The notes under the pieces: generated by a model
What the model was told of the DNA's origin: nothing
Seen by the model: the letters and a program-made list of their open reading frames with translations, nothing else
Databases searched by the model: none
Translations under genes and position numbers: made by a program
Origin: Eudoraea adriatica DSM 19308
GTDB lineage: Bacteria; Bacteroidota; Bacteroidia; Flavobacteriales; Flavobacteriaceae
NCBI RefSeq assembly: GCF_000382125.1
Contig: NZ_KB907548.1
Coordinates: forward strand, 372,001 to 436,000
Reading direction: 5' to 3'
Length of the DNA: 64,000 nucleotides
Shown here: in pieces, positions 18,438 through 26,881 of the stretch
Layout of the letters: every line of letters starts with the position of its first letter
Position numbering within the stretch: the stretch's first letter is position 1

Positions 18438-18581
18438 ATGATTAACAAGGTAAATATTACTATGAAGTTCCTTTTTGAGGGTCAAATATCAGGAATTGTC
18501 CTGTTTACCACAAGTTTGGGACAGCTCACAACAATAATTATATTTTCATGGGGGTTGATTGTATGTTTACACTGTAAATAA
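18438..18581 (+). CDS. possible small membrane peptide
   Basis: An ATG at 18438 opens 47 codons with one strongly hydrophobic helix (about residues 18-44, containing GIVLFTTSLG and IIIFSWGLIVCL). A second in-frame ATG at 18462 would give 39 residues. The hairpin at 18621-18654 with a T run lies 40 bases downstream in the correct direction. No homologue is known to me and the start site is weak, so this is a tentative call. Confidence 0.28.
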   Translation: MINKVNITMKFLFEGQISGIVLFTTSLGQLTTIIIFSWGLIVCLHCK

Positions 18582-18620
18582 TAAGAAGTTAATTTTTTCA
18601 TTTTCATATAGTGTTCTCGT

Positions 18621-18654
18621 AAAAGAGTCCTGATCGTAAAGACAGGGCTCTTTT
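18621..18654. terminator. hairpin terminator, usable on both strands
   Basis: AAAAGAGTCCTG pairs with CAGGGCTCTTTT (12 pairs including one wobble) around a 10-base loop. On the plus strand it is followed by T; on the minus strand it follows the menB stop by about 70 bases. It probably ends menB transcription and could also end a plus-strand transcript from 18438-18581. Confidence 0.7.
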
Positions 18655-18723
18655 TAGTTTTAAACACTCTGAATCAATGCATGAGTAAATAAAGGTTAAA
18701 AAAGAATTGGGTAACCAACAATG

Positions 18724-24342: not shown

Positions 24343-25206
24343 ATGAGGCAACTTAAGATTATCAAGCAGGTAACCAACAGAGAATCAAAATCATTAGATA
24401 AATACCTGCAGGATATCAGCAAAATAGAGCTAATTACGGCAAATGAAGAAGTGGAATTAGCACAAAAGATAAGGAACGGCGACCAGGCCGCTCTGGAAAA
24501 ATTAACAAACGCAAATTTGAGATTTGTGGTCTCCGTGGCAAAACAATATCAAAACCAGGGTTTAAAACTTCCCGATTTAATCAATGAAGGTAATGTAGGC
24601 CTGGTAAAGGCGGCCAAAAGATTTGATGAAACCAGAGGATTTAAGTTTATTTCCTATGCGGTTTGGTGGATACGGCAATCTATTTTACAGGCATTAGCAG
24701 AGCAATCCAGAGTAGTTAGATTGCCTTTAAACAAAATAGGATCTATAAATAAGATAAAGAAAACCTTCTCTTATTTGGAACAAGCCCATCAGAGACCCCC
24801 TTCTGCGGAGGAAATTGCCACGGAATTGGAAATGAGTGTAAGTGAAGTAAAACAGTCCATTAAAAATTCCGGCAGACATGTTTCTATGGATGCACCCCTA
24901 AAAGAAGGTGAAGATTCTAATTTATATGATGTTATGCGATCTGGTGAATCTCCAAGACCGGATAAGGACCTTATGCAGCAATCGCTCAATACGGAAATTA
25001 ACAGGGCATTAGAGACTTTGTCTCCAAGGGAAGCCGATGTAGTTAAACTTTATTATGGCATTGGCGATCAACAGTCTATGACTCTTGCAGAGATCGGACA
25101 AACATTTGATCTTACAAGAGAACGTGTCAGGCAAATCCGGGAAAAGGCAATTCGAAAATTACGCCATAATTCTCGCAGCAAACTTCTTAAAACATATTTG
25201 GGTTAA
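24343..25206 (+). CDS. rpoD: primary-type RNA polymerase sigma factor RpoD/SigA
   Basis: The 287-residue protein begins [14 protein letters not shown], the standard start of the short Bacteroidota group 1 sigma factor. Region 1.2 ([23 protein letters not shown], cited only as its position at about 18-40), region 2 ([19 protein letters not shown]), region 3 and region 4 ([19 protein letters not shown]) are all complete. It lacks the long N-terminal region 1.1 of E. coli, as expected. It recognises the TTTG / TAnnTTTG promoters typical of the phylum. A shared terminator follows 8 bases after the stop. Confidence 0.96.
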
Positions 25207-25213
25207 ATTTAAA

Positions 25214-25237
25214 AAAGCCCGGAAATTCCCGGGCTTT
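25214..25237. terminator. bidirectional terminator between rpoD and the small-peptide unit
   Basis: AAAGCCCGG pairs with CCGGGCTTT around a 6-base loop. On the minus strand the stem is followed by six T, so it ends the small-peptide transcript well; on the plus strand it ends rpoD with a weaker tail (TTTCTAT). Confidence 0.88.
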
Positions 25238-25262
25238 CTATAACAATCTATACTAAAAGCTC

Positions 25263-25364
25263 TTAAGAACAGCTTAGTTTGTGGATATTGTAATCCATAA
25301 GAATTTCATTAAGATCTTCAATGAAATTCAAATATGCGGTGTTGTCCTGATGTTGGTTTGCCAT
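25263..25364 (-). CDS. small acidic peptide, 33 aa (paralogue of the upstream peptide)
   Basis: The ATG at 25364, preceded by an A/T-rich leader with no Shine-Dalgarno, opens MANQHQDNTAYLNF, then IEDLNEILMDYN, ending in HKLSCS. Residues 11-22 (YLNFIEDLNEIL) match residues 10-21 of the peptide at 25402-25500 in 10 of 12 positions, while several codons differ at third bases, the pattern of selection on protein. The segment would be an amphipathic acidic helix; a single Cys is near the end. I do not recognise the family. It is the second gene of a two-gene unit that ends at the hairpin at 25214-25237. Confidence 0.7.
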   Translation of the reverse strand: MANQHQDNTAYLNFIEDLNEILMDYNIHKLSCS

Positions 25365-25401
25365 AATATTTGATTTTTAAAAATTGAAATAGCCGAGTGG
25401 T

Positions 25402-25500
25402 CTATAAATAGTCCAATTCGGCTAATTCGTTTAAACTTAAAATTTCATTCAAATCTTGGAGGAAATTTAAATACTCCTCCCCGTAGGTGTCGTATAACAT
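25402..25500 (-). CDS. small acidic peptide, 32 aa (paralogue of the downstream peptide)
   Basis: The ATG at 25500 opens MLYDTYGEEYLNF, then LQDLNEILSLNE, ending in LAELDYL. The shared core is at residues 10-21; the C-terminal half keeps a leucine-rich acidic helical pattern. The paralogue follows after 37 bases. A good Bacteroidota-type promoter lies about 50 bases upstream (25551-25581). No modification enzyme, transporter or kinase gene is beside it except the polysaccharide cluster whose last gene ends about 145 bases upstream. Function unknown; regulatory peptide, subunit or peptide precursor are all open. Confidence 0.7.
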   Translation of the reverse strand: MLYDTYGEEYLNFLQDLNEILSLNELAELDYL

Positions 25501-25550
25501 GATAAGTTTGGGTTTAAATTATTGAGATTTGGGTATCAATAATCATATAG

Positions 25551-25581
25551 TAAACATAAATAATCTTAGTTGTGTACCAAA
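25551..25581 (-). promoter_or_regulatory. promoter of the small-peptide unit
   Basis: Minus-strand TTTG (25581-25578), 19 bases, then TATGTTTA (25558-25551), one mismatch to the Bacteroidota consensus TAnnTTTG with ideal spacing. Transcription would start near 25545, giving a leader of about 45 bases before the ATG at 25500. Confidence 0.6.
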
Positions 25582-25645
25582 TTAAATGTGGTGAAGTCGG
25601 CTTTTTTTGTTGTAAACTAACAATTTATATATGTCTGGCAAAGAA

Positions 25646-26881
25646 TCAGAACTTCGTATGGTACCTGAATCCTGCAGTAATAGCCAAAAAGTATTTTCCA
25701 GGCTCGAAGACCAGTTCCTGTCTCGTAATACCAAGACTTGCCCTGTAACTGTTAGTTACACTTTTGCCCGTAAACTGGTATTCAAAAAGAAGTTGCTGAG
25801 ATTCCACGAAGAGCAAAGTCTCCGCAATAATTATATCACTAGCCGATATAAGTTGCTTAATTTCGGGAGAATAGCCTAAAATTAAATTTATCCCGAAATA
25901 ATTCTCGCGATCCTGAAAATATTTCCGAGCCAACAGGCTCCCTGAAATTCCAATAGGACCATCAACCCTCGGAGTTATATATGGCCTTAATGAAAAGTAA
26001 TAATTCCCGCTATATAGCCCGGCGGAAGCTGTATAAATTAAAGCCCGGCTGGTTACAAAATCCAAATAGCGGACTCCCCCGGAGACCTCGACGGCCTTAG
26101 GTAAATTTGCATATAGCTCTGCCGCTGCTCTATGGTTCGGAAAAATCTCAGAATTTGAGTACCCATAATTCGCATAGGCATAAAACTTTTTTGAAATTTT
26201 TGGGTACAAATCTATTTCGTATTGTAATCCATTAGTATTAAAACGGTTGCTGAAATTTATTCTTGGAATTACTTTGCCAATCCCGGTTTCTCTTATATAC
26301 TCTGCACTTGAATATATCATTGGGTCGTAAACGATATCAAATACATCTACAGAATTTATTATCCCTATCCTGTTCTTAAAGGATTTAGCTTCTGTTTCTT
26401 TTGATTCTTTTGCTTCTCCAGTATCAGAAGAATTTTGCCTCTTGTAAATCTCCTTTATTATTTCAGTACGCAAAGCTTGTAAATCCGGATCGGCCTTTAA
26501 ATAGGTTAGAGATTTATTGGCCAGGCCAAGGGCAATTGAATAATTTTCCGCATAAATTTCATTGTTGATAGCTGCTGTCCATACTTCTTTATTCTGTCTT
26601 TCTACCGAGGTTATTTTATTAAAGTGTTTGCGTGCCTCGGTATGATTACCATCCCAGCTGTAAGTCTTGGCAAGCAGGTTTCTGACATCCGTATAATCAG
26701 GGTACCTGGAAAGAATTAACCGAAGAGTATCTCTGGCGATGCTATGTTGACCTCCAAAAGCAAGATCCCGTGCTGTAAAAAACGACCTGTCCGGATTACC
26801 CTGGTACGCTAATTCCTGTGTTGTTCCTTTTTGAAGGAAAAACACCAGAAACAAACCTAAAGCTAAGTTTCGATATAACAC
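25646..26881 (-). CDS. YaiO-like outer-membrane beta-barrel protein with TPR-like N-terminus
   Basis: The 411-residue protein has a signal peptide (LGLFLVFFLQKGTTQ). Residues of about 30-150 are TPR-like repeats (VRNLLAKTYSWDGNHTEAR, AAINNEIYAENYSIALGLAN); residues of about 175-411 form a beta barrel ending in FRYHTKF. YaiO proteins are outer-membrane proteins encoded with glycosyltransferases in polysaccharide loci. It is the last gene of the six-gene cluster 25.6-35.3 kb and likely serves export or anchoring of the product. Its TPR-like part resembles the C-terminus of the sulfatase-fold protein encoded next to it. Confidence 0.82.
   Translation of the reverse strand: MLYRNLALGLFLVFFLQKGTTQELAYQGNPDRSFFTARDLAFGGQHSIARDTLRLILSRYPDYTDVRNLLAKTYSWDGNHTEARKHFNKITSVERQNKEVWTAAINNEIYAENYSIALGLANKSLTYLKADPDLQALRTEIIKEIYKRQNSSDTGEAKESKETEAKSFKNRIGIINSVDVFDIVYDPMIYSSAEYIRETGIGKVIPRINFSNRFNTNGLQYEIDLYPKISKKFYAYANYGYSNSEIFPNHRAAAELYANLPKAVEVSGGVRYLDFVTSRALIYTASAGLYSGNYYFSLRPYITPRVDGPIGISGSLLARKYFQDRENYFGINLILGYSPEIKQLISASDIIIAETLLFVESQQLLFEYQFTGKSVTNSYRASLGITRQELVFEPGKYFLAITAGFRYHTKF

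Follow-up and report, generated by a model that had tools for sequence, protein, structure and literature searches.

A deeply conserved pair of micropeptide genes beside flavobacterial rpoD appears to belong to a regulon of small transcripts with a predicted LytTR operator

The DNA analysed here (the window) is a 64,000-nucleotide stretch of the Eudoraea adriatica DSM 19308 genome (contig NZ_KB907548.1, positions 372,001 to 436,000). Its minus strand carries, convergent to rpoD, a compact unit of two very short open reading frames with the following parts.

25587..25616, minus strand: direct-repeat element, predicted LytTR operator (TTTACAACA at 25616-25608, 12-bp spacer, TTCACCACA at 25595-25587)
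25551..25581, minus strand: promoter (TTTG at 25581-25578, 19 bp, TATGTTTA at 25558-25551), assigned from its sequence; position conserved
25518..25543, minus strand: leader hairpin (ATTATTGA / TCAATAAT, loop with CCCAAATC at 25533-25526), from the sequence, putative and recognised by eye
25402..25500, minus strand: ORF1, 32 aa, MLYDTYGEEYLNFLQDLNEILSLNELAELDYL (ORF coordinates exact)
25386..25480, minus strand: RNA hairpins at 25480-25458, 25456-25433 and 25428-25386, which together cover ORF1 and the stop codon
25263..25364, minus strand: ORF2, 33 aa, MANQHQDNTAYLNFIEDLNEILMDYNIHKLSCS (ORF coordinates exact)
25214..25237, minus strand: predicted terminator, an inverted repeat with a T run that faces the convergent rpoD, from the sequence
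24343..25206, plus strand: neighbouring rpoD, primary sigma factor, 287 aa (Pfam)

The promoter, both ORFs and the terminator lie where a sequence-only reading of this DNA had placed them, and the paralogous core it proposed is borne out by 10 of 12 core residues common to both peptides. That account overlooked the direct-repeat element, which is common to other small-transcript genes including one in the window at 18504-18656. A generic scan for sigma-70 promoters and terminators reported neither the promoter nor the terminator of the unit. We assign the former as a Bacteroidota sigma-A promoter based on its TTTG-N19-TAnnTTTG form and the conservation of this form; the inverted repeat at 25214-25237 is G+C-rich and followed by a T run. 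Rfam models run over 25100-25750 gave nine matches at E ≤ 1, all below their gathering scores and most on the terminator region. The motif CCAAAT occurs within 75 nt 5' of ORF1 in 43 of 77 unit loci and is absent from the leader in the other 34. Two candidate features were set aside: a further stretch of the source genome that matches the unit as DNA (L002), which spans 37 bp around a start codon without a related ORF and was taken as chance, and a Shine-Dalgarno-like GGAGG within ORF1, which pairs with CCTCC of the first hairpin and is not kept in Maribacter or Zobellia.

The micropeptide pair is real and deeply conserved. With a profile of both peptides, 12 of 60 genomes (the source genome included) were matched at E < 1e-12 and one more, G030, at 2e-4; at a lax E ≤ 1 the list grew to 35 of the 60, the remainder being weak. 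A search of the Flavobacteriaceae at E ≤ 1e-3 found homologues with a conserved core, on which the sequence-only reading had made its claim depend, in 75 of 397 genomes and 44 of 237 genera; 70 of these genomes had two matches and five (G030, G089, G109, G281 and G319) had one. Outside the family, weak matches were all that the searches of the order (3 of 346 genomes) and of the phylum (1 of 345) returned; three of them lie in frames of 1487, 50 and 481 aa, and the other contains a stop. Comparison of 17 members with Pfam, NCBIfam and PHROGs gave best E-values of 0.029 (Pfam) and 0.012 (PHROGs) and no NCBIfam match, and the best match of the profile in the PDB had an E-value of 0.11. The earlier remark that no described family was known is consistent with this absence of any matching family or solved structure at E < 0.01. 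Our literature search found no description of the unit or the regulon.

A scan of named genomes found 247 relatives, and the analysis used the best 80 of them. They come from Eudoraea, Muriicola, Maribacter, Zobellia, Arenibacter, Flagellimonas/Muricauda, Robiginitalea, Cellulophaga, Croceitalea, Croceivirga and other genera. Within these best 80 of 247, ORF1 is present in every locus, with its length of 32 codons kept in 78, and ORF2 is present in 77. The three missing copies of ORF2 are explained by a contig end (L096) and by deletions in two Eudoraea loci, L078 and L080. These deletions have different junctions and both remove the ORF1-ORF2 junction, leaving 32 codons of ORF1 that are nucleotide-identical to the window and a frame that runs on for 1 and 8 further codons. 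ORF1 is therefore not dependent on ORF2, since its 32 codons survive two deletions that abolish the partner gene. Neighbours were counted in those of the best 80 with enough sequence (76 for rpoD, 76 for the YaiO-like gene and 75 for DUF6155): a convergent rpoD begins or ends no more than 450 nt away in all 76, a YaiO-like gene lies upstream in 36 of 76 and DUF6155 lies beyond rpoD in 52 of 75. The sequence-only reading had asked whether the pair sits beside rpoD or the yaiO cluster; in these loci rpoD is the constant neighbour, and the idea that the peptides regulate the polysaccharide (yaiO) cluster finds no support in these counts. In the 8-kb stretches read, none of the ORF1-only relatives of three genera (G030/G281, G109/G319 and G089) adjoins rpoD, and those in G089, G109 and G319 lie near a helicase gene or DUF6155, which neighbour rpoD in the window. 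In these ORF1-only loci (L155/L159, L156/L157 and L158) CCCCAAAT or CCCC occurs shortly 5' of the start codon.

To quantify selection we used 60 of 81 sequences (the window and the best 80 of 247), namely those in which the initial call gave an ORF2 of 33 residues and in which rpoD encodes 287; the set omits ten loci in which ORF2 was missed by the first pattern or at a contig edge, nine of which were recovered later. Mean pairwise amino-acid identity in this set is 91.4% for ORF1, 67.6% for ORF2 and 93.7% for RpoD. The corresponding pN/pS values, calculated as uncorrected Nei-Gojobori proportions with most pairs near saturation, are 0.080, 0.230 and 0.066. The conservation of ORF1 comes close to that of RpoD. 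With pN far below pS for both ORFs, the proposed selection on protein is confirmed, and the view that the pair reflects an old duplication rather than a copy error has also held. AlphaFold2 predicts a long helix at residues 8-23 of ORF1 (mean pLDDT 88.8). Synonymous codon differences among six Eudoraea loci number 0-3 of 32 codons in ORF1, 6-10 of 33 in ORF2 where present and 41-123 of 287 in rpoD. The few synonymous differences in ORF1 therefore show that in Eudoraea it is constrained at the nucleotide level as well.

In Eudoraea-like species ORF1 and the following 34 nt fold into three hairpins. Compared with synonymous shuffles, the fold has a z-score of -1.7 in the window and of -2.1 to -3.6 in eight relatives; the average for 78 loci is -0.87, with 36 loci below -1, eight below -2 and one above 1. 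Beyond the Eudoraea-like subclade the fold is weak, and many loci of Maribacter, Zobellia and Flagellimonas show little or nothing of it. Covariation was examined with 16 sequences picked from the subclade in which the fold was seen, a choice that favours the fold: 87.3% of cells are paired in these sequences, as compared to 84.1% in shuffles and 29-55% in slid versions of the structure. Changes on both sides of a pair occur in 18 cells and 7 pairs, numbers reached by 0 and 12 of 500 shuffles, respectively, and six of these seven pairs belong to the third hairpin, which spans the stop codon of ORF1. The count of pair types is unremarkable relative to shuffles (25 versus 23.3; 95 of 500). At the level of sequence, the stop-codon hairpin covaries within a subclade. 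In the stop-hairpin counts, from which L078 and L080, both with ORF2 deleted, were excluded, the Asp30 codon and the stop codon combine as GAC-TAG in 32, GAT-TAG in 19, GAT-TAA in 17 and GAC-TAA in 8 of 76 loci, a pairing pattern that is suggestive only.

The more surprising part of this analysis is the regulon to which the micropeptide pair appears to belong. The element upstream of the promoter consists of two 9-bp direct repeats, TTYACAACA-N12-TTCACMACA, with a period of 21 bp and constant spacing to the -7 box; we take the half-site to be only partly like the LytTR base consensus. CACCACA (at most one mismatch) was found in 84 of 90 loci scanned; in 69 of the 84 it is preceded by ACAAC at exactly 20 bp, and in 76 it is followed by TAnnTTTA at exactly 35 bp. 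Searching the source genome for the CACCACA-type pattern alone gave 2 matches and 2 control matches. A relaxed search showed that CACAACA variants recur in Eudoraea genomes, and the regulon surfaced only when CACAACA was allowed: ACAAC-N15-CACMACA occurs 9 times in the source genome (control 3), and the 63-bp module including the -7 box is present in 4 exact and 4 one-mismatch copies (control 0). Tolerating up to three mismatches gave 39 matches as compared to 18 in the control, so these looser copies are largely due to chance and were rejected.

The distribution of the module follows that of the micropeptides. Among 60 genomes, 14 from five genera (ten Eudoraea as well as G010, G020, G027 and G035, all from genera with the rpoD-side unit) hold 5-9 copies each, with a single control match in all 14; the other 46 genomes contain 1 copy and 7 control matches altogether. 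Two of the 14, G007 and G008, have module copies and no micropeptide match, and their assemblies are 60 and 82% complete. Across the family, at least two copies occur in 73 of the 75 unit-bearing genomes and in 3 of the 322 others (G128, G287 and G410), a comparison that represents far fewer independent events than the numbers suggest because the genomes share ancestry. At least one copy occurs in 73 of 75 and 24 of 322 genomes, respectively; one copy per genome usually belongs to the promoter of the unit itself. The two unit-matching genomes with zero copies are G030 and G281, each with an ORF1 relative, and G128 holds four copies with the micropeptide profile unmatched.

One of these modules lies in the window itself, some distance from the unit.

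18504..18569, plus strand: second operator-promoter module (TTTACCACA-N12-CTCACAACA, TATGTTTA at 18562-18569), one mismatch to the search pattern
18576..18656, plus strand: predicted noncoding RNA (about 80 nt; contains TTTTTTCATTTTCATATAGTGTTCTCGTAAAAGAG; FopS-like core; end resembling a terminator)

The core of this RNA recurs almost unchanged behind sites in G010, G027 and G035 and behind a second copy in the source genome (L204). The sites in G027 (L281) and G035 (L276) lie 7-8 kb from the unit, and G010 has a module site about 13 kb from it. Rfam gave one match at E ≤ 1 for seven loci (isrK at 0.32), which is not convincing; FopS may not be in Rfam 15.

We read 44 distinct module sites from nine genomes, a sample that includes orthologous sites of several Eudoraea genomes. 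CCAAATC lies within 160 nt of the -7 box in 25 of the 44 (background 0.018 per site), usually starting 17-18 or 26-28 nt after the box, and the near-identical FopS-like core follows 7. Neither RNA signature was found at 12 sites. Three of these have a sequence closely resembling the leader motif, and four, namely the second sites of L229, L233, L235 and L242, come from two-site fragments and were read on cut stretches. At the 21 sites outside Eudoraea, CCAAATC was found in 10 and the FopS-like core in 6. A class of noncoding RNAs with CCCCAAATC could be aligned for 15 members, 11 of which contain at least two copies of CCAAATC; the consensus fold of these 15 has one 6-pair stem with zero compensatory changes. 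RNAs of this type carry one to three CCCCAAATC-type copies, some in tandem, as in L198 and L199 (G000:C6:264482 and 264878), with relatives in L274, L279, L283, L285, L286, L289, L290 and L292; in L300-L303 they lie beside a gene that we take to be hflX-like. A second micropeptide of 33-35 residues, ending in [IV]QVY[RQK]N[DE][FY].SGI.[ML]L[TA][KR]KLFM[LF], was found in eight loci behind the module: L197 (G000:C6:241589), L228, L231, L241, L244, L278, L284 and L291. In L299 and L305 the genes 5' of this micropeptide are presumably CoA-transferase genes.

Two further observations concern less regular sites. In L188 (G000:C2:644644) and L237 a 42-residue membrane-like ORF starting MKTNSEKHPVLNAILSVLNL stands behind an operator-like site without a -7 box at the usual distance. 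In L205 and L206 (G000:C3:148419 and 149594) two nearby sigma-factor-like genes, the first with a Sigma70_r2 domain by domain scan, follow two-mismatch copies of the module that may be due to chance.

A candidate regulator emerged from the position of some operator copies. In seven loci from five genera (G000, G002 and G005 of Eudoraea, G010, G035, G134 and G246) they are flanked by a LytTR response-regulator gene on one side and a kinase gene on the other. These are seven of ten loci fetched as candidates rather than a random sample, and the other three (G215, G260 and G414) are other module members. The REC-LytTR regulators of these loci are 90-96% identical to that of the source genome. Pfam detected REC and LytTR domains in six of the seven regulators (all but G002, which was outside the scan) and TPR, HisKA_2 and HATPase domains in the three kinases scanned (G000, G005 and G246); the remaining kinases and regulator were assigned by position, size and likeness, with the kinase of G010 comprising two ORFs. 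LytTR proteins, as far as the available text of PMC2766830 describes them, have sites of 9-bp repeats with a 12-bp spacer. The element TTTACAACA-N12-TTCACCACA has this 9+12+9 geometry and is placed upstream of a promoter, so that position and geometry together suggest that this regulator acts on the operator.

Starting from the conservation, coding selection, shared module and co-occurrence read from these sequences, we infer the regulator's identity, activation, translation, a partner and a role for the hairpins and for CCCAAAUC. We consider it rather probable that the unit belongs to a LytTR-controlled regulon of small transcripts, in which this member is an mRNA for two microproteins that, in part of the clade, is also a structured RNA. 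Both microproteins are paralogous and acidic, and ORF1 at least is predicted to be mostly helical. In this proposal a clade-specific regulon would be co-activated by a LytTR-type two-component system, the candidate pair being the REC-LytTR response regulator and the TPR histidine kinase encoded beside operator copies. Once phosphorylated, the regulator would occupy TTYACAACA-N12-TTCACMACA, immediately upstream of the -33 box, and attract polymerase with the primary sigma factor. Sibling transcripts would be noncoding RNAs with the CCCCAAAUC motif or the FopS-like stretch and the mRNA of the second micropeptide. ORF1 and ORF2 would be translated, remain intracellular and probably bind a protein that is itself strongly conserved. 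In the Eudoraea-like subclade the ORF1 RNA itself would be structured, and its stop-codon hairpin could lower the expression of ORF2. Over dozens of genera this 32-residue protein is under a constraint close to that on the primary sigma factor, which points to a basic, so far unrecognised interaction, and the operator of the unit marks out a group of small RNAs and micropeptides for which a candidate regulator can be named. To our knowledge, few sRNA circuits are understood in Bacteroidota. A more elaborate version, which we regard as doubtful, is a Csr-like circuit of Bacteroidota: LytTR-induced RNAs with CCCCAAAUC in loops or unpaired stretches would titrate an RNA-binding protein, mRNAs with the leader motif, including that of the micropeptides, would be its targets, and the micropeptides would feed back on this circuit.

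Other explanations start from the neighbourhood of the unit or from its RNA. The microproteins might regulate RpoD itself, as anti-sigma or sigma-helper peptides, and for this reason stay next to rpoD. The invariant convergent rpoD beside a varying upstream neighbour in the best 80 of 247 loci fits this idea, as does a constraint on ORF1 nearly equal to that on RpoD. However, the ORF1-only relatives of three genera are found away from rpoD in the stretches read, which weakens the link to sigma-factor activity made in the sequence-only reading, and since DUF6155 is likewise kept beyond rpoD, the rpoD block may simply rearrange slowly. We consider regulation of RpoD unlikely. The covarying hairpin, the small number of synonymous differences in ORF1 relative to rpoD in Eudoraea, and the noncoding siblings with a common operator and leader motif would all be expected if the transcript were only a regulatory RNA with incidental ORFs. 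The low pN/pS of both ORFs and the retention of 32 codons in 78 of the best 80 loci speak against incidental ORFs and make this reading very unlikely.

A T-rich stretch after the stop-codon hairpin in several species raised the idea that ORF1 is the leader peptide of an attenuator, to which we assign a very low probability: only ORF2 lies downstream before the terminator and the convergent rpoD, and ORF1 lacks a run of codons for a single amino acid. The small size of the peptides and their occurrence as a paralogous pair recall signal peptides or precursors of modified peptides (pheromones or RiPPs), as had been proposed from the sequence. The neighbouring genes lend no support to these ideas, as inspection by eye of the listed ORFs recognised no modification enzyme or peptide exporter; the peptides also have no variable core and, by eye, no export signal. 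Such a function appears very improbable.

The reading we prefer, a two-microprotein mRNA within a LytTR-controlled regulon, can be compared with several known systems, each as far as the available text of its source describes it. Rfp18 of Flavobacterium psychrophilum (PMC9723704) is likewise a conserved flavobacterial sRNA, from a different genus and compared here by its description. FopS and GibS of Bacteroides, which are associated with RbpB (PMC11697453), are also multicopy small transcripts of Bacteroidota, and one sibling class described here resembles them in its 5' stretch, its terminator and a similar TTTTCATATAGTGTT run. According to that text the FopS loci were checked and are without small ORFs; in contrast, our unit is coding. 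Dual-function sRNAs such as SgrS/SgrT (surveyed in PMC5521070) share with the unit a short transcript that combines conserved RNA elements with a selected small ORF, selection being reflected here in the pN/pS values of 0.080 and 0.230 over 60 loci. Unlike these sRNAs, the unit encodes two paralogous ORFs, and its RNA side is known from the conservation of structure and motif. Similar in its control region is the LytTR regulon, for example that of SilA in streptococci (PMC2766830), with two direct repeats of 9-10 bp and a spacer of 11-12 bp upstream of the promoter and with a regulator gene beside operator copies, an arrangement found here in the seven loci with the candidate regulator. The flavobacterial regulon differs in that several of its predicted targets are small RNAs and micropeptides, in that the kinase is a TPR histidine kinase, and in that its candidate regulator is recognised by position and geometry.
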